The notes: generated by a model not told the origin, from the sequence alone. A stretch of DNA of 64,000 nt from Elusimicrobiota bacterium (GCA_026388095.1 JAPLKL010000045.1:62001-126000), one strand, 5' to 3'. Counted from the stretch's first letter, positions 34,342 to 44,919 are shown. Translations and numbers: made by a program.

Positions 34342-34466
34342 GGTGATTCCCCGAGCGCCCCGGACATGCGCGGCGGGTCTGGGGCGAAACCGGCCAGGCA
34401 CGGAGTGGCTGGACGGCAGAGGGTGTTTGGGTGGCGGGTTTCTGTTTTTTAGGAACGGGCGTCAAG

Positions 34467-34535
34467 GCATAACGCTGAGGCCAACCCCACGTAGGGCGCC
34501 GCGTGTGCGCGCGCCCGCCGAAGCCGATGTGGAAC
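34467..34535 (-). other. attC site 7 (last of array)
   Basis: Minus-strand palindromic site: R''-like GTTCCAC at 34535-34529, central CTACGTGGGG, and R' GTTATGC at 34473-34467. It follows the cassette ORF ending at 34541 by 5 bp. Downstream of it the sequence returns to the chromosomal GspF-like gene. Confidence 0.7.
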
Positions 34536-34540
34536 TTGGC

Positions 34541-35194
34541 TCATTTGTGACGTACCAACTTGAACTCCTTCCCGTCGTACTCGTAGCGTGGATGCTTTTC
34601 TCTTGGTTTCTTCAGCGAGTGTACCGGCGCCTCTTCGCTAACCCAGGCCTTTTCCGTTACTTCAATTGTTGGCGTGTAGTTCGGGTTACCAGTAAAGTGC
34701 GAAAAGATGTGGCTCCAGGACATCAGAAGGTCGATGCGGTTACCGGCGTACGCGGCAAGTCTCGCACGCCAGATGGGCCTCAATGATCCCCCGTCGATTC
34801 TGAGCAATATCCCTTCCGTATTGCGTTCATGCGGCGATGACCAGGCCTCCCATTCGTACACGACCCAGAGGCAAGCGGTATTGGGCAACAGATCGGGTAC
34901 AACAGTCCCGGTTGAGAACTCCAATCTCGGGGTGGGTTTGAGCGAGAAAAGGGGTTGGCTCTTGTCGTCGGTATTGGCTCGCCAAAGTTTTAGAACCCCA
35001 TACTCCTCAGACATCCCCCGTTGCGGATCGTCGGGGCCAGAGACCACTCGAATTACAAACGAAGGTGGATTGCCAATCAGGTAGCGGTGCGGAAGCCTCC
35101 TCACGTACATGTAGGCGCTTGCAGTCGAGGCAATTAATAGGCTGGCAATTCCCACAACGGCGAAGAAGGATGTCCTCATCTGACTTGCTGTCAT
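34541..35194 (-). CDS. Cassette ORF 7: membrane-anchored protein of unknown function
   Basis: 217 residues from the ATG at 35194 (212 if the second Met at 35179 is used). An N-terminal hydrophobic segment (about residues 10-29 of the longer form) is followed by a soluble, beta-rich domain ending HPRYEYDGKEFKLV. The ORF begins just 5 bp after the core GTTATTT (35205-35199) of the preceding attC, as cassette genes do. Codon use is less G+C-rich than the chromosome. No family recognised. Confidence 0.7.
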   Translation of the reverse strand: MTASQMRTSFFAVVGIASLLIASTASAYMYVRRLPHRYLIGNPPSFVIRVVSGPDDPQRGMSEEYGVLKLWRANTDDKSQPLFSLKPTPRLEFSTGTVVPDLLPNTACLWVVYEWEAWSSPHERNTEGILLRIDGGSLRPIWRARLAAYAGNRIDLLMSWSHIFSHFTGNPNYTPTIEVTEKAWVSEEAPVHSLKKPREKHPRYEYDGKEFKLVRHK

Positions 35195-35198
35195 TTCC

Positions 35199-35408
35199 AA
35201 ATAACGAAGCTGTAGAAAAATCCTCCGCGTCATCGATAGCTGCATCAGGATCAACCTTTATTCGATTATAGTCAAGAATCTGCTGTCATGAGAGGATTAT
35301 CTACAGCTTCAACAATGGGCCTGCGGCGCGCGCTATGTGCGCGCCGCATTGGCCAACCCCACTTTGGCGCTCCGCACGTGCGCGCGCCCGCAGCGCCGAA
35401 TGTTGAAC
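35199..35408 (-). other. attC site 6, interrupted by a 105-bp insert
   Basis: R'' GTTCAAC at 35408-35402 fits RYYYAAC. The palindrome has GCGCGCGCACGTGCG...CGCGCACATAGCGCGCG arms around GGGGTTGGCC. The R' side is split: GTT at 35313-35311 is followed by a 105-bp insert (35206-35310) and then GTTATTT at 35205-35199. Confidence 0.75.
35206..35310. repeat. 105-bp palindromic-ended insert, copy B
   Basis: Exactly 105 bp, flanked on each side by AAC (GTT on the minus strand). Ends are inverted repeats (GAAGCTGTAGAA against GAAGCTGTAGAT on the other strand). It shares about 80 % identity by eye with copy A at 36012-36116. It contains no ORF. Confidence 0.8.
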
Positions 35409-35439
35409 CGAGTCTTGCCATGCAGAATTCTCATAGTCT

Positions 35440-35991
35440 TCATTGCGTGGCGACCTCGGCTCGGACCCGTCCTATCAAGAATCTAGCAAAAGCGACTTCT
35501 GCTGCAACGACCACAATGCAGATAGGGAAGAAGTGATCAGATCCCATATTCAGCCGAAGCATGTGGCCGCATATAAAAAGAAAAGCAAAGCCAGACAACA
35601 AGCCACCAAGCAACGACCTGAGGGCTCCCGGGAACAGTAGGCTGGGAAGCATGGCGGCCATCAGTTGGAGAAATAGGATGAGATGGCCGGGAGGCTCCGT
35701 TGAAATTACCAGGGAAAGAACAACGAAGGGACCAGTGGCCCAAATTAGTCGCCAGTAGATTGGTCTAGGAACCGATTCCCCCATGTAGTAGACGACGAAA
35801 AGTAAGCTGTAAATTGAGCCCGCCGCCGTGCCGCCAACCAGAGCCCATACTATCCCGAACATGATGCCCACAAGGCCATGGATGGTTACGAAACGAAGGT
35901 GGTCGGATGCAAGAGATAATGCAAGACACAGGATGCCCGAAAGCCCGGCGTTTATGGCGACAAAATAAATCGCACCGTCTATTCGGTTCAA
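35440..35991 (-). CDS. Cassette ORF 6: multi-pass membrane protein
   Basis: 183 residues with about five or six hydrophobic segments (NAGLSGILCLALSLA, IHGLVGIMFGIVWALVGG and so on) and no recognised domain. It starts at a TTG (35991) placed 5 nt after a GGAAGGAG Shine-Dalgarno sequence; the nearby ATG is followed at once by a stop. The GTTAGGC core of the previous attC is only ~14 bp before, so the ribosome-binding site is supplied by the cassette itself. Confidence 0.75.
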   Translation of the reverse strand: MNRIDGAIYFVAINAGLSGILCLALSLASDHLRFVTIHGLVGIMFGIVWALVGGTAAGSIYSLLFVVYYMGESVPRPIYWRLIWATGPFVVLSLVISTEPPGHLILFLQLMAAMLPSLLFPGALRSLLGGLLSGFAFLFICGHMLRLNMGSDHFFPICIVVVAAEVAFARFLIGRVRAEVATQ

Positions 35992-36004
35992 TACATCTCC
36001 TTCC

Positions 36005-36214
36005 GCCTAACGAAGCTGTAGAAGATCTCCTGTGCCATTGATCGCTGCATCAGAATCAATCCTTATTCGATTATGGTCAAGAATCTATTGCCATGCGGGT
36101 ATTATTCTAGAGCTTCAACGCATGGGCCTACCGCGCGCGCTATGTGCGCGCCACGGAGGCCCACCTGACCGGGCTCCGCACTTTTGCGCGCGGCCGGAGA
36201 GCTCGATGTGTCTA
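36005..36214 (-). other. attC site 5, interrupted by a 105-bp insert
   Basis: Degenerate R'' (TAGACAC, 36214-36208), palindrome with CGGCCGCGCGCAAAAG...GCGCGCACATAGCGCGCG, then GTT at 36119-36117, a 105-bp insert, and a perfect R' GTTAGGC at 36011-36005. Without the insert the core would read GTTAGGC directly. Confidence 0.75.
36012..36116. repeat. 105-bp palindromic-ended insert, copy A
   Basis: Same length, orientation and attC position as copy B. Terminal inverted repeats GAAGCTGTAGAA / GAAGCTCTAGAA, flanked by AAC (GTT) on both sides as if by a 3-bp target duplication. No ORF. Confidence 0.8.
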
Positions 36215-36247
36215 GCAGACACGACCGAAATGCGGCATACGATAAAC

Positions 36248-37918
36248 TCATTTTGAGGCTTTCTGATAATACTTGAGCAAGAGCTTCCAGCGTTGTGTCT
36301 CACCCAGCATATTGATGGAGGCAGCCCACAATGGTATTTGGGATTCCGACGGCTCCTGGTGAACGCTTGAATCTGGAAAATCAGCGCACCAGGTAGCCAT
36401 TTGTGGCCATCCGTTGTCTGTACAGGCGAGAATTTCAGAAAATGCCTCAAGACCATCCGGTGTTTTAGGGGCGCCTTCGGCAATCAACCGGCGGATCTCT
36501 CGTGCCACCGCTTTAGGTTCCGGATATTCAAAAAGGCCGTGAAGAACTGGCTTCAGGACATTGCTGTATCTGTCCATATCTAATTCCCGGACCAGCAGAG
36601 GCAATGCACGCGGATCAGGAAGATTCGCTAAACGTTCCGCCGCGGCCTCGCCCTCGAATGCGTCGCCGCCAGCAAATGCATCTTGGCACTCACGAAGTGT
36701 TTGAGTAACAAACTCCGGGCTAGGTGGAAGGACTACGAGGCGGGTCGGTTCAGAAAATATTTGCACCATGGGTCCCGAGGAGTATTGTAAATGGACCGCA
36801 GTCTCCGGAATTTCCAATTGGTATTCACCAGGCGCGCGGATGAAGAACGAGCCGGGCCTTCCTATCCTGCGGGGGCCGCCAGGAGGCAAATAAGGCGCGC
36901 CATTGTAAATCACGTTGAAAGTCCATAGGCCTGGGACCGCGCCGCAATGCCTGACCCGCACACCTTTTGAGGTCAGAATCAGGTGTAAAGCCCCCCAAGG
37001 CCAACTGTGGTCTTCAAAAAAATCTCCATTCCCAATAATTCTTGCGTCGTGCTCATCCGCCAAGACCGGCGTCACCTTGATTTCTTCACCAGCATAGAAC
37101 TGCGTTTTCTCCATCGATAATCGCAGCTTGACTCGGTGATGCGATCCTGGCGGGGGTGCGATCCGACGATACAACTCTGGCAACCGCCCTTGCAGCAGTT
37201 CGTGGCAGGGGTAGTCCTGCCGTCCTGCCATTTGAGTGATTTCGGCCAAAGTGGCGAGGGTGAATTTAGAAGTTGAATGTACAAAGGCCGCGGCCAAGCC
37301 GCAGCGGCGCTTTACCGAACCACGCTGGATTTCTCTTTCGCCCTCTTGTATTGCATCCACATCGCTAGAGGAAAACGCCAACACCATGCTCAGGCCGCGC
37401 CGCGGAGATTTATCATCATCGGCAGCAATCATGCGTCGGTACATTGGCAATGCGGCGCGTGCGAAAGGACCTTGCCTTGAAACAGCTTCCATTTGCGCCC
37501 ATTCATAAATCCGTCCCGTCTCGATCATTCGGACCATCTCGGGAACGGCCGAAGACGATGTTTCACCAAACATTGAAAGTGCGCTGAATGCGTTACTCGC
37601 GACAATGGGATCGGTATCCTTCATTACTTCAACGAGAGCGGGAATGGTTGTGGCTGGATTTGCGCCAATTATGCCGAGTGCCATGACAATCGTTGAACGA
37701 TTGTCTCGAGAACTAGAGAGCCTGCGGAGTAATTCGGGAGCGGCCGCTTTGGCATACGGCCCGAGTTCAACTAAATCATTCAGGGCGTCATCCTGGTCTG
37801 GTGTATCAAGCTTTCTGACCAACTCGGGAATGATATCGCGATCAAGGGCGCCTTCGTCCAGTTGGGCACGTGCTGGCAGCGCGAGCAAAACCAGCGATGC
37901 CATCGTGAATGCTTTCAT
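36248..37918 (-). CDS. Cassette ORF 5: secreted HEAT-repeat protein
   Basis: 556 residues with a signal peptide (MKAFTMASLVLLALPARA). Residues ~25-240 and ~420-500 consist of HEAT-like helical pairs (AAPELLRRLSSSRDNRSTIVMALGIIG, TTIPALVEVMKDTD). Between them lies a beta-sandwich-like part with APGEYQLEIPE, similar in style to the C-terminal domains of cassette ORFs 1 and 4. Large for a cassette gene. Function unknown; probably a protein-binding scaffold in the envelope. Confidence 0.75.
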   Translation of the reverse strand: MKAFTMASLVLLALPARAQLDEGALDRDIIPELVRKLDTPDQDDALNDLVELGPYAKAAAPELLRRLSSSRDNRSTIVMALGIIGANPATTIPALVEVMKDTDPIVASNAFSALSMFGETSSSAVPEMVRMIETGRIYEWAQMEAVSRQGPFARAALPMYRRMIAADDDKSPRRGLSMVLAFSSSDVDAIQEGEREIQRGSVKRRCGLAAAFVHSTSKFTLATLAEITQMAGRQDYPCHELLQGRLPELYRRIAPPPGSHHRVKLRLSMEKTQFYAGEEIKVTPVLADEHDARIIGNGDFFEDHSWPWGALHLILTSKGVRVRHCGAVPGLWTFNVIYNGAPYLPPGGPRRIGRPGSFFIRAPGEYQLEIPETAVHLQYSSGPMVQIFSEPTRLVVLPPSPEFVTQTLRECQDAFAGGDAFEGEAAAERLANLPDPRALPLLVRELDMDRYSNVLKPVLHGLFEYPEPKAVAREIRRLIAEGAPKTPDGLEAFSEILACTDNGWPQMATWCADFPDSSVHQEPSESQIPLWAASINMLGETQRWKLLLKYYQKASK

Positions 37919-37926
37919 CTTGTGTC

Positions 37927-37996
37927 TTCTAACGCTGAGCCGCCGCCGGTTGCATGAGCCGACCGCTTGAGCGGGCGGCTCATGCGAATGTTGGGC
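37927..37996 (-). other. attC site 4
   Basis: The clearest short site, 70 bp: R'' GCCCAAC (37996-37990), stem CATGAGCCG...CGGCTCATG with CTCAAGCGG in the loop, and R' GTTAGAA (37933-37927). The following cassette ORF starts 9 bp later at 37918. Confidence 0.85.
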
Positions 37997-38009
37997 GGCC
38001 GAGAATAGT

Positions 38010-39005
38010 TCATTTCGGCTTTGGAACCTCTACAGAGATGGTGAAGGGGTTGCTCATGAGTTCCGTGTCAAGAATGTGGGTGTTAGCATTTTTCATTATC
38101 TGATTGCATTGGATGGTGCAAACAGCGACAAATTTATATTGTCCAGATTCTCTGAAAGTCCAGTAAGCGCTGACATCGATGGTATCACCCATCGTCGCGC
38201 CCGGTTGAGCTGACCAATCCCTGCCTATGCCCCCTATGAGTACAACATTCCCTGTCGGGGTGATGCTCTTCTGTTTGCCTGCGGGCAAAAAAAGGTCGCA
38301 GGGGAGGTAGTGTATTTCGAAAGGGCTCAGATTCCGAAAGCGCAGGTACACGGTCGGTGCCACTTGATTGGACTTTGGGACTACGGCTTCAAGTATGATA
38401 ACCGGATGGAAACCGCATTTGCGGGACACAGCGATTAACAAGCAGAGGCCTAGCACTACTCCCAGAATCCAGCTTAGCGATTCGCGTACGACGCTATGAC
38501 TCCTGCTGGAGTGAGGCGAATAGGTCTGTCCATGCTCGACGATTAGGTGATTCGCATTTGGCTTCTCATCGGACGTTGAACATCCCTTCCTCCATATCAG
38601 CATTTGAGCGGCAGCCGCAAGAAACCCGATCAACGATGCAAACGGCACGACTGCAACATGGACTGATTTTAGGACCGGAATGGAAACAGACTCAATCAGG
38701 CGTGCCAAAATCAGTTGAAGAAATCCCTTCGCCGCAAATGATATGGAGGGATTCACAAGTTCCGAAAGCACGGCACCGATAGGGCAAATCACTAGACCAA
38801 CCATCGCCCCCGCCAAGGCACCCCGCCATAGAGAGAGTCGAGGCTGGACCATGAAACGCCAGATCAGTGCACTTGTCAGAGCCGCGCTCAATCCGTAACC
38901 AATGCAGTGACGGCTGAGCAATTGGTGCGGAAAATTGGCGGCCCACGTAAGGAGCCAGATGATGCTCCCGAAGATCAGTCCGGTGGGAATCCAAAGGTGT
39001 CTCAT
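38010..39005 (-). CDS. Cassette ORF 4: membrane protein with extracellular beta domain
   Basis: 331 residues from the ATG at 39005 (MRHLWIPTGL); the longer frame to 39032 begins inside the attC core and is rejected. Four or five hydrophobic segments fill residues 1-140, another lies near 175-200, then a ~130-residue domain (VAPTVYLRFRNLSPFEIHYL...YWTFRESGQYKFVAVC...NPFTISV). That last domain is homologous to the product of cassette ORF 1. Function unknown. Confidence 0.72.
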   Translation of the reverse strand: MRHLWIPTGLIFGSIIWLLTWAANFPHQLLSRHCIGYGLSAALTSALIWRFMVQPRLSLWRGALAGAMVGLVICPIGAVLSELVNPSISFAAKGFLQLILARLIESVSIPVLKSVHVAVVPFASLIGFLAAAAQMLIWRKGCSTSDEKPNANHLIVEHGQTYSPHSSRSHSVVRESLSWILGVVLGLCLLIAVSRKCGFHPVIILEAVVPKSNQVAPTVYLRFRNLSPFEIHYLPCDLFLPAGKQKSITPTGNVVLIGGIGRDWSAQPGATMGDTIDVSAYWTFRESGQYKFVAVCTIQCNQIMKNANTHILDTELMSNPFTISVEVPKPK

Positions 39006-39026
39006 CGGATTTCTAGTGTCCCGTCC

Positions 39027-39125
39027 GTCCAACGCTGGGCTCGACGGCGCGCGCTATGCGCGTGCCGCTGAGGCCAGCCCCGCGTTGGCGTTCCGCGCAC
39101 TTGTGCGCGGCCGCCGATGTTATGG
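39027..39125 (-). other. attC site 3
   Basis: R'-core GTTGGAC at 39033-39027 fits GTTRRRY; R'' region ATAACATCGGCGGCC near 39121; stem arms GCGCACAAGTGCGC and CGCGCATAGCGCGCG around GCCAACGCGGGGC. Confidence 0.8.
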
Positions 39126-39126
39126 C

Positions 39127-40233
39127 TCATTTGCTGTTCAATGCGCCGGATGATTCCTTTGACGTTTCAAATCTTCGGACGGCTGCCAATGCCTCTGGTG
39201 TGCCGATTCCCCTGAGAGCTTCCATCACAGCGTTTGTTGCTATGTTCAGGTGGAGCCGTCTCGTGGCAGGACTATAAAAAGGATCGCCCTTTTGGTTTTC
39301 GGGAAACGGCATGACTAAGCTATCTCCATTCGACTTTTCTGCGACTTCAAATAAAGAGGGAACCGCTGAAGCTGCCGCTGGGCCAATCTGCCCCAGGGCG
39401 ATGGCAGCATAGTAGGCACAAGTGAAGGTCGGCTCATGACCAATAATCGAACTCGAACCTTGACAGATTCGGGTCTCCGGTTCTTGCAGGAAACGGGTCA
39501 GCCGAGGAATGGCTGTCGCAGCTGCGGCGCCGATGCCTCCCAGAGCATCGATGGCCCATTGACGGACGGTCTTGTCATCGAGCATCGCAATCAAATCGGA
39601 GACTGCTGGCCTTGATGGCGACCCAATCTTCCCCAACGCAAGCGCAATGCTCCCTCGGCACCAGGTCTCACGGTGCATCTGTGTCATGAGCGCAGGGATT
39701 GCCTTCTCTGCTCGCAGGTCTCCAAGAGCGTCAATCGCGGCGCAACGCGAATCCTGAGTTTGATCATTAATGGATTCAATGAGTCTTGGGATAGCTTTGC
39801 GTCCCGCTGGACCCATTTTCGCGAGGGCTGCAGCAGCATACCATCTTATCCCCCAGTCTGAATCTGACAAGCACCTCATTATCTTGCCCGAAGCCGAAGC
39901 GGCCGGCAAACCGATTTCATTTAATGATTGGAGGGCGTAGTGTCTCAGGCGGAAGTGGTGGTCTGGAGATTCGAGAAGGTCGGTGAGGGCCTTGACTATA
40001 TCTGGCGTCGTAGGTTTGACTTTTCCTAATGCTACTGCTGCTGCTACGACGCGGGTACTGGGCCTCTCATCTTTTAGGACACGGATCAGATCAGAAACAG
40101 TAGGGTCGCCAATTTGGCCGGCGCGATGCTCTTTTGTGCTCCCAGAGACGACGAATCCTGTGGGGCCAAGAACCACGAGAAGCAACAGGAGTTCCCGAAT
40201 CAATCTTATCATGAGAGACTGCAGTTGCGGCAT
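39127..40233 (-). CDS. Cassette ORF 3: HEAT-repeat protein
   Basis: 368 residues (361 if the Met at 40212 is the start). A hydrophobic segment near residues 12-32 suggests secretion or anchoring. The rest is six to eight HEAT/PBS-lyase-like repeats (AAAALAKMGPAGRKAIPRLI, AIDALGDLRAEKAIPALM, IALALGKIGSPSRPAVSDLI, AIDALGGIGAAAATAIPRL). Probably a protein-protein interaction scaffold. It ends 2 bp before attC site 3. Confidence 0.8.
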   Translation of the reverse strand: MPQLQSLMIRLIRELLLLLVVLGPTGFVVSGSTKEHRAGQIGDPTVSDLIRVLKDERPSTRVVAAAVALGKVKPTTPDIVKALTDLLESPDHHFRLRHYALQSLNEIGLPAASASGKIMRCLSDSDWGIRWYAAAALAKMGPAGRKAIPRLIESINDQTQDSRCAAIDALGDLRAEKAIPALMTQMHRETWCRGSIALALGKIGSPSRPAVSDLIAMLDDKTVRQWAIDALGGIGAAAATAIPRLTRFLQEPETRICQGSSSIIGHEPTFTCAYYAAIALGQIGPAAASAVPSLFEVAEKSNGDSLVMPFPENQKGDPFYSPATRRLHLNIATNAVMEALRGIGTPEALAAVRRFETSKESSGALNSK

Positions 40234-40290
40234 TTCGCACTGTGGTAGAGCACGTCGGTCATTTTGTGATTACCCTCTGTTTCTGATCTG

Positions 40291-40355
40291 TAGCCGGGGT
40301 TTGCGGCGCGCGCTATGCGCGGGCCACAAAGGCTGCCCCCACGTTGGCGTTTTAG
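40291..40355 (-). other. attC site 2 (degenerate)
   Basis: It shares the central CGCCAACGTGGGGGC and CGCGCATAGCGCGCGCC blocks of the other sites, but a clear GTTRRRY core is missing and the next ORF begins ~60 bp away. Probably a decayed or rearranged site. Confidence 0.5.
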
Positions 40356-40366
40356 CAATTTCGATT

Positions 40367-41101
40367 CTAGTATTCGCGAAAGACGTACCCTTTGTCACAT
40401 TCGCCACAGATGCTGCCCGTTTGTGCGTCGATGCCGCAGTGAGGGTAACGTGCGCCGAAAAAGGGATATCCCTCGACACTCCACGCCAAGGTCGGTGAGG
40501 AAGGTGATCCGCAGCTATCCCAAATTGAGCCAACCCGGATTGTCAATTGAGCCTTCTTGATGGGCAGGGGCCAGCCCCAATGCTCAAGAGCGATTCCGAT
40601 AGCCATCATCTTTGTGATTTTTGGCTCCAGTTGCAGATTCCACGAATCTGTCTTGATGAACCTTACGGGAATGACCAGATTGTCGCCTGATTCACGTGTC
40701 CAGCCACCAACATGAGGAAGATCTATCGGCACTCCCTTCCACAACTGTACGACTGGTGCGGGAGTTCTCCACCAACTCTCACTAGCTAGGTCCGACGGAT
40801 TGACTCCGAACAATCCTGCATTCTCTTTAACGAAGGTTGGCCACTTTTTTATTGTCGGAGATTTCTTCCCGGCGCTGACACACGTAACCCTTCCCTTGTA
40901 GCAGTCAACTTCAAAAGACCACTTCGCTCTAGCTGCTAGAATGGAGTTCTTGGTGGGTTCACCACAATCGTCTAGGTTGTTGCGAAGCTTTAGGCGCCCT
41001 CCACATGGGGCTAACACGGCAATGAGCCCAGATGCTGCTACCGTAACGAGCCCAGAGGCCAGCATCAACCCACAAATCCTAGTGCCCGCTCCCTTTCTCA
41101 T
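40367..41101 (-). CDS. Cassette ORF 2: secreted protein of unknown function
   Basis: 244 residues with an N-terminal hydrophobic segment (about 10-31). The mature part holds several Cys (APCGG, DDCGE, VDCYKGRVTC, WDSCG, HCGIDAQTGSICGEC) and ends YVFREY. The GIDAQTG turn and the upstream LAWSVEGYPFFGARY strand are reminiscent of PepSY-type domains, but this is weak. Starts 18 bp after the GTTAGAC core of attC site 1. Confidence 0.7.
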   Translation of the reverse strand: MRKGAGTRICGLMLASGLVTVAASGLIAVLAPCGGRLKLRNNLDDCGEPTKNSILAARAKWSFEVDCYKGRVTCVSAGKKSPTIKKWPTFVKENAGLFGVNPSDLASESWWRTPAPVVQLWKGVPIDLPHVGGWTRESGDNLVIPVRFIKTDSWNLQLEPKITKMMAIGIALEHWGWPLPIKKAQLTIRVGSIWDSCGSPSSPTLAWSVEGYPFFGARYPHCGIDAQTGSICGECDKGYVFREY

Positions 41102-41119
41102 CTTTCCGTTTCCAATACT

Positions 41120-41221
41120 GTCTAACGCGTCGATGCTGCTGCGCGCGCTACGCGCGGGCAGCAGCGGCCGACCCCTCTTGGGTTCCGCACTGGCGCGCGC
41201 CAGCAGAACCGGAAGTTGGGT
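41120..41221 (-). other. attC site 1
   Basis: 102-bp site: R'' ACCCAAC (41221-41215), arms CTGCTGGCGCGCGCCAG and CCCGCGCGTAGCGCGCG, central AACCCAAGAGGGG, and R' GTTAGAC (41126-41120). Both core sites fit the RYYYAAC and GTTRRRY consensus. Confidence 0.85.
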
Positions 41222-41225
41222 GGAA

Positions 41226-41729
41226 TCATTGCCTGGACTGCTTCGGCGCTAGCACGTTTATCGAGAACGGTGTGCTACTCGCTCGATAGACGGAGGAAGT
41301 CACGTCACCGGACTTGGCCATCCGTATGCATTCCATTCCGCATTCTACGACAAATTCATACTGGCCCGGTTCGTCCAGAGACCAGTAGTCCTCAATGAGC
41401 AGGACATTCGCAGGCTCTCTATTGAGCGCCAAATGGCCGAGACTTTCCGCTGAATTCTTGGGCACTGGATGTATGCCGTTTTGGTTACCAACTGATTTTA
41501 TCTGGCAAAACCATTCGTAACAGTGGAAAGTCGCTGTGCTCAGATTGAGGGATTGAAATTTAACCTGATGTTTGTCCCCCGGATGTTCGGGAATGCTCTT
41601 TATGAGTTCCGCCGAAACACGGATGTCGGGCAAAGCTTCTTTAGCGGATCGATTCGCGAAATGAAGTATTGCTCCAATCAGTAGCGCGGAGGACGCAATA
41701 CCGACAAGCCAACAAACTAATTTGCGCAT
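41226..41729 (-). CDS. Cassette ORF 1: membrane-anchored beta-domain protein
   Basis: 167 residues. N-terminal anchor (MRKLVCWLVGIASSALLIGA), then a ~130-residue domain with YEWFCQIKSVGN and EPGQYEFVVECGMECIRM...STPFSINVL. The last part aligns with the C-terminal domain of cassette ORF 4 (ESGQYKFVAVCTIQC...SNPFTISV). Its start lies ~48 bp after the core-like GTTAGGT at 41783-41777, the upstream limit of the array. Confidence 0.75.
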   Translation of the reverse strand: MRKLVCWLVGIASSALLIGAILHFANRSAKEALPDIRVSAELIKSIPEHPGDKHQVKFQSLNLSTATFHCYEWFCQIKSVGNQNGIHPVPKNSAESLGHLALNREPANVLLIEDYWSLDEPGQYEFVVECGMECIRMAKSGDVTSSVYRASSTPFSINVLAPKQSRQ

Positions 41730-41948
41730 GGGGCCGGTGAGTAATCCTCTTGTGTTGGCCGCTTGGTCATATTTTCACCTAACGTGGTGTCTGCCGTTTG
41801 TGGAAAATGGACAGCTTAAAATACCTTCAAACCGAATTATATTCCTCCGGCTTGCCTAAATCAATGAACATGCCAGCCCACCATCCGGCAAAGGCCGTTC
41901 CAGCCGGGTTGCACAAAATCAGAAAACCAACCCAGCCCCTTCCTTTAC

Positions 41949-42538
41949 TTACTGCCCCGCCTGCGCCCAAACCTGGCCCGCCGGCTCCTTCTCCAATGCC
42001 TTGCCCAGCCCCTCCACCGCTTCGCCGAACGCCTTGCGCATCACCCGCGCCAGGTCTTGCCCCGGCCGGCCGCCGTGCGCCTCTTCCACCTCCACGGTCT
42101 TCTTCCAGAACCCCTGCAAGTCAGGCGCATCGGCCCGCACCAAAGTCGCCGACAGCTCCACCTTGAGCCGGTAGCTCCCGCCGCCCGAGCGCGGGTGTAT
42201 CCAGGACGCCTCCTGCACCGCGCCCTCCACAAAAAGCCGGGCGCCCCGGGACTCCTGCTCCTGAATCGGGAGGTAGCCGTTGCCGCCCTCCACCACCTCG
42301 GCCGATTCCATCAGCCGGGCCTCCAGCTCTGAGGCCAATGCTTTGCTCAGGATCTGCATGGTCAGTTGGGGCCGCCACAGCGAGCCGCCGCGGGTCAGGT
42401 TGGACTGCAGGACCGGGGAGCCGTCCTTCGCGGAGGCCGTCCGGCTGCCGGCGACGGCTCATAATGGCAGGAGGGTTCCAGGCAGCCGCTCAGGACCGGA
42501 AGCAAGCCCAAAATCGAAAACGCAATATTGCGATTCAT
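41949..42538 (-). pseudogene. Frameshifted lipoprotein gene
   Basis: From the ATG at 42538, with GGAGAAG before it, the frame reads a lipoprotein signal (LLPVLSGC lipobox) but hits a stop near residue 48. A second frame picks up around 42460 (SAKDGSPVLQSNLTRGGSLW) and runs to 41949 through MQILSKALASELEARL to VWAQAGQ. The total length is not a multiple of three. One indel near 42440-42465 would restore a protein of about 195 residues. A sequencing error is an alternative to true decay. Confidence 0.65.
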
Positions 42539-42722
42539 TTCTTCTCCGATCCAAGCCACTTCTGAGGGACCAGTGCCGTGCGCGATTATGGGAAGATATT
42601 CGCTTCGTAGGCCTTCTTTTGAAAGAAGTCGTCGGGCAGCGAATATTCCGAGGGATTGAACTTGTGTTTTTCAATCATTTCGTTAAGCTCGGCACTAGCC
42701 TGAATTCTTCAGTTGAAATGGA

Positions 42723-42760
42723 ATTCGGCCCCGGCACGGCCGTAAGTGCCGGGGCCGAAT
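42723..42760. repeat. Perfect 15-bp inverted repeat (hairpin 1)
   Basis: ATTCGGCCCCGGCAC at 42723-42737 pairs exactly with 42746-42760 across an 8-nt loop. No U-tract follows. First of three stems within ~160 bp upstream of the transposase gene; the stretch 42539-42958 has no gene I can support. Confidence 0.85.
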
Positions 42761-42819
42761 CACGCTCCCGAAGAGCGTAAAGAAGCGTTGACCCAGCCCG
42801 AGGTGTGAACACCGGCCTC

Positions 42820-42881
42820 GGCGCCGCCCGGAGTGGCGGCGCCGGGGTGCCCGGCTCGCATACAGCGCTCGCCGGGCACCT
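42820..42881. repeat. Two further perfect 10-bp hairpins
   Basis: CGGCGCCGCC (42820-42829) pairs with 42836-42845, and GGTGCCCGGC (42847-42856) pairs with 42872-42881. Together with the stem at 42723-42760 they make a compact structured region just ahead of the IS gene. Confidence 0.8.
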
Positions 42882-42958
42882 TCCAAAACGAGCCATCGTC
42901 TCGCTAGACTTCTGTTGAACCCGTTGGAGTTACCCAAACGACAGGAGGCAACGAGACG

Positions 42959-44296
42959 ATGGAATACCAAGCTACATCATTACTGGGCAGCAAGGAAATA
43001 GGGATCGAGTTCACGGACAAGCCCGTGACCGCCTGGGGCGGCCTAAGCTTGTTCGTGGGCTTGGCCCGCCAAGTTGGCCTTGAGCATGCTTTACGCGAGG
43101 CGTTGCCGTTTGAGCTGACCTCACCCAACGCCACTGACCCGGTCGAGATCGCGTTGGCGTTCATGGCCGGTGTCCTGGCCGGATCGCGGCGCCTGGCACA
43201 TGTCGAGCGTTTGCGGTGGGACGAATGCGTGCGGCAGATGCTGGGGGTCAAGCGCTTCGTATCCGACACAACGCTGGCGCGCTTTTTCCGGCGGTTCACG
43301 GCCGGGACCGTGACGACGGTTTTCGAGCAGCTCATGGTCTGGCAGATGAAGTTGGTCGAACTCAACGAGGACATCCTGGACCTCGATAGCACGATCATGG
43401 AGCGCTACGGCAAGCAGGAAGGAGCGTTCCTGGGCTATAACCCAAAGAAACATCGCAGACCCAGCCACCATCCGCTCTTGGCCACGCTGGGCAGCCGTCC
43501 ATGGATCGTTCATGCCTGGCTGCGGTCGGGAAACACGACGAGCGCCAGGGGTGCTGAGCAGTTCTTGGCGGAGACCTTGGCGATGCTGCCGAACGCTTCT
43601 TCAATCCGCTATCTTCGCGCCGATTCGGGTTTCGGTTACGATCCGTTCTTGAACTGCGTGGAAGACAAGCGCCTGGTCTACACTGTGGCGGCGCGTTTCA
43701 CCAAAGGGCTCAGGAACCTGACGTCGGCGGTCACGAACTGGCGGGAGCTTGACCCGGACACCGCGGTCAGCGAGGTCATGTTCCAGGCGCATGGCTGGAC
43801 GAAAGCGCGGCGGGTCGTGCTGATCCGCAGGCGCAAGAAGGAGTTGGACTTCGTGCGCGGCCGGGAGCTCTTCGATCTTCCAGGCTACTTGTTCCAGGCG
43901 ATCCTGACCAATCGGACAGACGCGCCGGAAGAGGTCTGGCGCTTCTACCGCAAGCATGCTGAGATCGAGACGAAAATTCGCGAGCTGAAGTGGGACTATG
44001 GCATCGATGGCTTCGCGCAGAAGAAGTTCTTTGCAACCGAGGCCGCGTTCCGGATGGTTTGCATCACGTTCAATCTGATGACGCTGCTTCAGGAGAAGAT
44101 CGGGCAGCCGGGCTATCAGACGCTGGGGACCTTGCGCGCGCAGTTGCTGGCCTGTGGTGCGGTGCTCGGACGCGATGGGAAAAAGACAGTCCTGCGGCTG
44201 TCGTTGGGGGGGCCGTGGCGTGTGCGTTTTGAGCAGGCACTGAGCGCCTTCTTCCCGGCGATAAAAGCCAACTGCGCCTCAGTTGTGACCAGCTAG
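42959..44296 (+). CDS. IS1380-family transposase
   Basis: 445 residues, intact. DLDSTIMERYGKQEGA and GYNPKKHRRPSHHPLLA contain the first catalytic Asp region of the DDE transposases in this family; RADSGF supplies the second, and the C-terminal YRKHAEIETKIRELKWDYG the Glu region. AGGAGG lies ~8 nt before the ATG. I could not define matching terminal inverted repeats or target duplications by eye, so only the gene is delimited. It sits between the cassette array and the ATPase islands. Confidence 0.88.
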   Translation: MEYQATSLLGSKEIGIEFTDKPVTAWGGLSLFVGLARQVGLEHALREALPFELTSPNATDPVEIALAFMAGVLAGSRRLAHVERLRWDECVRQMLGVKRFVSDTTLARFFRRFTAGTVTTVFEQLMVWQMKLVELNEDILDLDSTIMERYGKQEGAFLGYNPKKHRRPSHHPLLATLGSRPWIVHAWLRSGNTTSARGAEQFLAETLAMLPNASSIRYLRADSGFGYDPFLNCVEDKRLVYTVAARFTKGLRNLTSAVTNWRELDPDTAVSEVMFQAHGWTKARRVVLIRRRKKELDFVRGRELFDLPGYLFQAILTNRTDAPEEVWRFYRKHAEIETKIRELKWDYGIDGFAQKKFFATEAAFRMVCITFNLMTLLQEKIGQPGYQTLGTLRAQLLACGAVLGRDGKKTVLRLSLGGPWRVRFEQALSAFFPAIKANCASVVTS

Positions 44297-44358
44297 ACAA
44301 CCCTAGGCCAGGAGGTGCTTATCGAGCGACAAAAATATCCGAAAAAGGCGGGACGAAA

Positions 44359-44919
44359 TTATCCGGCCGCTTCCGACGATGGGAGTTGGCCAACTGACGT
44401 TTTCAGGCTAGAGATTGCCGCCTTGATTCTTTCCCCCAATATGCTCGAGATGGTGGCGGGCCCGGTTGTGTCGAAACCTTCCAGCATCATTTGTCGCCAC
44501 TTGTTCCCATACAGGTAGTACATCCGGACAAGATAGATCTTCTTAAGGCGCATCTTGAGGTCCTTGGCAGTAGCCGAATCTAATGACCCGTGCGATGCTT
44601 TTCCATCAATGGCAGCCTCCAATTTTGTGCGGCTGCTTTTCTGCCCCGATTCTATCTTCGACGTGAGCGTCCAGATCTGTCTCACGAGAGCTTCCAGCTG
44701 CTTCTGATCCTTGGAAGAAGCAAGCTTGTTTTTCCTCCAGTAAGCAAGATAATCCTGAGACATCCCTCTATCTTCTCGCTTGAGACGCTCCCAATCGGAG
44801 TTTCCCTCTATGGGCCGTTGGGCCTGAGCCGCAGCAGGCGCTGCCGAAGCCGATGCGGCGGCCAGAAGACACGTCAAGGCTAATAGGCTCACGGGCATGA
44901 AATTGTTCTTTTCACTCAT
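44359..44919 (-). CDS. Secreted helical protein of unknown function
   Basis: 186 residues with a signal peptide (about 1-27, ends SASAAPAAA). The mature protein is mostly charged helix (SDWERLKREDRGMSQDYLAYWRK, KLEAAIDGKASHG) with no recognised domain. AGAGGAG lies ~8 nt before the ATG at 44919. It follows the ATPase gene (44938) by 18 bp and may be co-transcribed with it. Confidence 0.7.
   Translation of the reverse strand: MSEKNNFMPVSLLALTCLLAAASASAAPAAAQAQRPIEGNSDWERLKREDRGMSQDYLAYWRKNKLASSKDQKQLEALVRQIWTLTSKIESGQKSSRTKLEAAIDGKASHGSLDSATAKDLKMRLKKIYLVRMYYLYGNKWRQMMLEGFDTTGPATISSILGERIKAAISSLKTSVGQLPSSEAAG

Follow-up and report, generated by a model that had tools for sequence, protein, structure and literature searches.

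A seven-cassette integron array standing apart from any integrase gene in an Elusimicrobiota genome, with transposon-like elements at two of its attC sites

We analyzed a stretch of 64,000 nucleotides from an Elusimicrobiota bacterium (GCA_026388095.1; JAPLKL010000045.1:62001-126000; hereafter termed the window) and found an array of seven integron cassettes on the minus strand at positions 34467-41783, namely a cluster of attC sites lacking an integron integrase (CALIN). We are highly confident that the locus is a CALIN built by an integron integrase (IntI) of a type that is still encoded twice in the same genome, and that it now stands apart from any intI gene. The 5' boundary of the array is marked by the core GTTAGGT (41777-41783) and the 3' boundary lies after GTTATGC (34467-34473). 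The first-pass annotation, made from the sequence alone, had proposed a cassette array of seven same-strand open reading frames (ORFs) at this place with a drop in G+C content, and both proposals were borne out; the G+C content is 0.50-0.54 for the seven ORFs versus 0.62-0.72 in the flanks. As a CALIN, the locus is genuine and unremarkable. The part deserving follow-up is a group of transposons and miniature inverted-repeat transposable elements (MITEs), two short members of which occupy attC sites of this array.

The attC sites were searched for with a covariance model, R1, which was trained on five palindromes beside the two intI genes of the genome and included no window sequence. The structure of R1 comprises the R''/R' pairing and the L''/L' stem, in whose L'' arm one base is unpaired; a further model, R2, represents the short-type attC, and the core consensus used was RYYYAAC for R'' and GTTRRRY for R'. 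Four strong sites, all on the minus strand, were detected by R1: those of cassette 1 (41120-41220; R' GTTAGAC at 41120-41126 and R'' ACCCAAC; 77.9 bits, E 2e-18), cassette 3 (39027-39124; R' GTTGGAC at 39027-39033; 68.5 bits, E 6e-16), cassette 5 (36112-36213; 61.5 bits, E 5e-14), and cassette 6 (35307-35407; 88.9 bits, E 2e-21). The covariance search for at least two attC sites that had been suggested at the outset was thus answered by four, with E-values from 1e-21 to 1e-14 under an independent model. The best R1 match elsewhere in the window, outside the array, scored 13.2 bits, and R1 found no attC upstream of 41783. No Rfam family reached its gathering score, the matches below that score being chance matches only.

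The remaining three sites are shorter or worn. The site of cassette 4 (37926-37997, minus strand) is short, albeit with both cores intact (R'' GCCCAAC at 37990-37996 and the near-exact R' GTTAGAA at 37927-37933); its match to R2 was weak (15.9 bits, E 0.09), and it is similar to the short site beside another copy of the 105-bp element on contig C31. In the decayed attC of cassette 2 (40290-40363, minus strand), the center is retained but the R'' and R' cores are gone (R1 22.2 bits, E 0.0014, for 40311-40363 against model positions 26-76). The last attC (34467-34540, minus strand) is truncated, with the 3' stem arm deleted and the core GTTATGC at its edge (R1 18.9 bits, E 0.011, for 34456-34513). 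Exact R' cores were found at 41120 and 39027 and exact R'' cores at 41120 and 37990. Among the core sites named beforehand, ACCCAAC/GTTAGAC, GCCCAAC/GTTAGAA, and GTTGGAC stood, but GTTAGGC (36005-36011) turned out to be a far GTT that lies 105 bp beyond an R' core, across an inserted element.

By the IntegronFinder convention, attC sites of a CALIN are spaced by no more than about 4 kb. The strong sites at 41120, 39027, 36112, and 35307 are separated by gaps of 2.0, 2.8, and 0.7 kb. As had been anticipated, no intI was found in the window; no gene above the cut-off was found anywhere on the window contig (C45), and the intI genes of this genome are confined to contigs C21 and C39. The description of the array as integrase-less therefore holds for the locus but not for the genome. 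Neither intI nor attI, which together would mark a chromosomal integron, was found at the 5' end of the array, the latter being sought by eye only and without a model.

The source genome (G000; 4.6 Mb, 79 contigs, 97.6% complete) encodes two integron integrases, which matched TIGR02249 with 423 bits (C21) and 393 bits (C39) against a cut-off of 265; the best solved-structure match of the first is IntI4 (2a3v). In each case, the intI gene is followed downstream by short ORFs separated by palindromes of ~100 bp. A search of the rest of the genome for intI had been recommended at the outset, and each of the two genes recovered proved to be accompanied by the attC type of the window. The same type was found on C21, C39, C69, C75, and C8, as well as in the same-genus genomes G002, G005, and G006, all of which bear intI. 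R1 detected arrays on C69 (eight full sites and a ninth truncated where the contig begins), C75 (three, close to the first end of the contig), and C8 (two), besides lone sites away from arrays (C79:9853, C63:99684, C23:27835, C67:77141, C13:43238, and C18:22176), which are possibly dispersed cassettes. The contig ends point to C69 and C75 as the probable distal portions of the two resident integrons: C21 closes with cassettes, C39 breaks off within a cassette, C69 opens within an attC, and C75 opens close to one. Across the order, intI above the cut-off was found in 16 of the 38 genomes searched (G000 included), and attC of the R1 type or a related type occurred in 13 of the 16 genomes with intI versus 4 of the 22 without. 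Thus, we regard integrons as a normal feature of this order; no integron study of this lineage was found in the open-access literature. Both integrases (L009 5170-6468 and L010 17931-19154) carry an N-terminal extension of ~80-100 amino acids (aa) ahead of the usual IntI start, and each intI is preceded by a divergent gene (L009 4040-5104 and L010 15489-16532, both on the minus strand) that encodes HATPase_c_4 (RecG C-terminal-like) and Fic-like_C domains; in L010, the divergent gene and intI are separated by two further ORFs.

Since two intI genes on other contigs head arrays of the same attC type, the window array would be a detached and decaying relative of the resident chromosomal integrons. 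The attC sites in the window score lower than the non-training attC sites of the other arrays (median 65 versus 100 bits; Mann-Whitney p 0.007). How the array came to stand alone can be pictured in two ways. It may be the distal part of a resident integron that was moved by inversion or another rearrangement, rather than the product of cassette insertion at a secondary (attG-like) site; we hold this tentatively, at somewhat less than an even chance. The attC type and cassette families common to the window and C75, the IS1380 element ~0.9 kb from the array edge, and the gene order at a GspF-like gene, which differs from that in G001, are in line with such a rearrangement. On the other hand, C21 and C39 run straight into cassettes, and an array lies at or close to the beginning of C69 and of C75, so that both integrons seem to own their distal parts, and the several lone attC sites dispersed in the genome are also consistent with insertion at many sites.

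Several observations weigh against the reading of the locus as a detached CALIN with transposon-derived insertions. Neither an empty site nor an attI remnant was found: the same-genus orthologue of the GspF-like gene occurs only in G001, with different neighbors, and the right-flank gene retrieved only same-genome paralogues. In relatives, the genes flanking the array are either absent or differently arranged, and we can therefore only infer the mode of detachment. The assembly of 79 contigs shows the neighbors of the other arrays only in part, and the short site at 37926-37997 falls below the threshold of R1 or R2 by itself. Lastly, the assembly that contains the window yielded neither an autonomous IS1182-like copy nor such a transposase; the short copies in this genome are thus probably immobile now, unless their partner is missing from the assembly.

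Two 105-bp elements lie in the array, both placed exactly at the R' core of an attC and bounded by inverted ends of 11-12 bp (GAAGCTGTAGAA…TTCTACAGCTTC). The first (36012-36116, minus strand; imperfect inverted ends GAAGCTcTAGAA / TTCTACAGCTTC) is located between the R' GTT of the cassette 5 attC (36117-36119), which is its entry point, and the next ORF, with the far GTT copy in GTTAGGC on its other side. The second (35206-35310, minus strand; inverted ends GAAGCTGTAGA / TCTACAGCTTC) is ~80% identical to the first, again has GTT on both sides, and entered the cassette 6 attC at the R' GTT of 35311-35313. A third copy, on contig C31, is 86% identical to the first and likewise follows an attC-like site. 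An attC interrupted by the element retains a GTT core (GTTGAAG). A TTGACN motif with a poor -10 box is kept in the three own-genome copies, yet it failed the promoter scan, and we claim no promoter inside the element. No exact copy was found in viral contigs.

A search of 56 genomes of the order with the end motif yielded 14 matches in nine genomes, with none for the reversed control. The match in G013 was set aside, as the sequence around it is apparently coding and a second end is lacking; after the addition of the second window copy and the copy in G053, 15 copies were counted. Seven of these are full short copies of about 98-106 bp (two in the window, one on C31, one each in G006 and G002, and two in G034), and others run into a transposase. 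The same ends delimit 1.8-kb transposase elements, which are full-length in G049 and G053 and reach the contig end in G028. The short copies, devoid of any ORF, are therefore MITEs that have their terminal inverted repeats in common with 1.8-kb elements of autonomous type. The transposase of the long elements is a DDE protein with the Pfam domains DUF772 and DDE_Tnp_1/DDE_Tnp_1_6, of which the best family is NF033551 (IS1182) at 241-244 bits, under the cut-off of 270. Exact MITE ends were found in 3 of the 341 genomes of the phylum, all within this order.

The association with attC is not confined to the window. An attC detected by R1 or R2 lies directly at the left end of the element in 12 of the 15 copies; among the other three, one (G016:C63) abuts the right end of another copy, and the two G034 copies score no attC. 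In G053, the R'' core GTCTAAC to the left of the transposon matches GTTAGAC to its right, as expected for a single attC split at R'. The small transposon found in the window seems to aim at attC-type recombination sites. One could regard the 105-bp units as ORF-less cassettes moved by IntI, on the grounds that G|TT bounds them on both sides, as it bounds a cassette, and that they sit between an attC and the next ORF. However, they have no attC of their own, their inverted ends recur on the IS1182-like DDE transposase elements at the same attC position, and the two cores flanking the G053 transposon pair across it; we consider the ORF-less cassette quite improbable.

We propose the following history for the array. 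An integron integrase would have assembled the cassette block, in which each cassette is an ORF with its attC, the enzyme being expected to cut the single-stranded attC hairpin at the G|TT junction within the R' core. The MITE-like element with IS1182-like transposon ends would then have entered two attC sites at that core. With a GTT copy on each side of the element, the attC would keep a GTT core and the element would become the 5' leader of the next cassette; the attC sites of the array may retain activity, and an IS1182-type enzyme may transpose the element in trans. The loss of a core from at least two attC sites has probably fixed cassettes 2-3 and 7 where they are, while IntI supplied in trans could still excise others. 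More generally, we give an even chance to the proposal that IS1182-like transposons and their 105-bp MITEs are specialized on attC, inserting at R' with GTT on both sides, sparing the hairpin and core, traveling as the leader of the next cassette, and being mobile by both the transposase and IntI.

The hairpins themselves bear the structure expected of attC. The alignment showed covariation at L''/L' and one unpaired L'' column, and two-sided changes were found at 10 of the 21 stem pairs over 28 sites (covariation 0.220 versus 0.092 in shuffles, with 0 of 500 shuffles reaching the observed value); the signal collapsed once the pairing partners were slid, although the alignment was fitted to the structure and leans in its favor. 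That the palindromes are ordinary repetitive extragenic palindromic (REP)-like or terminator repeats beside an operon of paralogues is hardly credible, since, GC-rich hairpins beside same-strand genes though they are, they are detected by a model derived from intI neighborhoods, possess R''/R' cores along with the L''/L' covariation and the unpaired base, form arrays behind intI in G000 and related genomes, and were not seen to abound in relatives away from cassette arrays, as such repeats, and the refutation foreseen in the first-pass annotation, would require.

CALINs have been described and are common (IntegronFinder, PMC9024848). The array shares with them at least two attC sites within a few kb, same-strand cassettes, and the lack of intI, and its worn sites fit the view of degraded integrons; unlike them, it resides in a genome holding two intI genes with the same attC type, and two of its attC sites are split by MITEs. 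The near-uniform attC type within the genome (C21, C39, C69, and C75) is reminiscent of sedentary chromosomal integrons, which the window locus does not match in its lack of intI and attI. The CALIN is thereby linked to two resident integrases via a common lineage-specific attC type.

The nearest precedents for the element are the IS1111-attC insertion sequences and palindrome-targeting members of the IS1182 family. Insertion at one end of attC is known for IS1111-attC (Tetu & Holmes 2008; Post & Hall 2009; ISKpn4 and ISPst6 in PMC11187229). Those elements have a DEDD transposase, subterminal repeats, and a seekRNA, whereas the repeats of the element described here are terminal, and the transposase of its long relatives is a DDE enzyme nearest to IS1182 rather than a DEDD enzyme as in IS110/IS1111. 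Palindromes or inverted repeats are the targets of IS1182-family members, among them IS1272, which replaces the target stem-loop (PMC5678879). The best transposase family, albeit under its cut-off, and the targeting of inverted repeats agree with this family, but the attC stem-loop is kept here, with a GTT to either side of the element. In the open-access literature searched, no account of an attC-targeting IS1182-like or MITE group came to light, which is weak evidence of novelty. If the proposal is true, IS1111-attC would be joined by another, independent transposon lineage that uses attC sites without destroying them, and the group would offer a testable case of nested mobility in which MITEs serve as portable 5' leaders of otherwise promoterless cassettes.

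The nearest plasmid-borne relatives of the transposase (38-45% identity) were found on Pseudoalteromonas megaplasmids and one Catenovulum plasmid. In P. piscicida (L138) and Catenovulum adriaticum (L140), similar ends (GAGGCTGTAGAAT and GAGACTGTAGAAT, respectively) occur directly after GTT, beside palindromic sequence. An R''-like ATCTAAC (P. piscicida) and the GTT at the junction were seen by eye only, and the short-type model R2 detected no attC-like site in the Pseudoalteromonas or Catenovulum flanks. The Catenovulum copy appears to be oppositely oriented relative to GTT. IS1182-like relatives at attC-like sites outside the phylum are a lead, not a result, and may suggest that the group is not phylum-confined.

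The cassettes, all on the minus strand, mainly encode membrane or exported proteins, in agreement with the envelope-type and HEAT-repeat products foreseen from the sequence. The product of cassette 1 (41226-41729; 167 aa) has an N-terminal membrane anchor, and that of cassette 2 (40367-41101; 244 aa) an N-terminal hydrophobic segment; both have homologues in the C75 array (46% over 169 aa and 32% over 220 aa, respectively). Two products contain HEAT repeats, namely those of cassette 3 (39127-40233; 368 aa; Pfam HEAT_2 4e-34) and cassette 5 (36248-37918; 556 aa; HEAT_2 6e-10), the latter with a signal-peptide-like start. Cassettes 4 (38010-39032; up to 340 aa) and 6 (35440-35991; 183 aa) encode multi-pass membrane proteins, and cassette 7 (34541-35254) encodes a protein of up to 237 aa with an N-terminal hydrophobic segment. 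Related proteins are carried twice in the array, a C-terminal domain being common to cassettes 1 and 4 and HEAT repeats to cassettes 3 and 5. As had been noted from the sequence, no resistance gene was recognized among the cassettes, nor was any defense gene, PADLOC returning generic HEAT matches only. A search for related loci with cassette protein 1 gave a single unrelated match of 24 aa.

A promoter-like TTGATT-17-TATAAT on the minus strand (41836-41864; 10 of 12 consensus matches) lies ~50 bp upstream of the array and is directed into it; it is only suggestive as the array promoter, such sites being no commoner in the region than in shuffles. The small gene adjoining the array (41949-42359) has several paralogues elsewhere in this genome, on contigs C62 and C63; none was found in 27 relatives. 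The IS1380-family element near the 5' edge of the array occupies 42699-44407; its ends are inverted, CTAG is its likely target duplication, and its transposase (42959-44296) matched NF033539 with 238 bits (cut-off 180).

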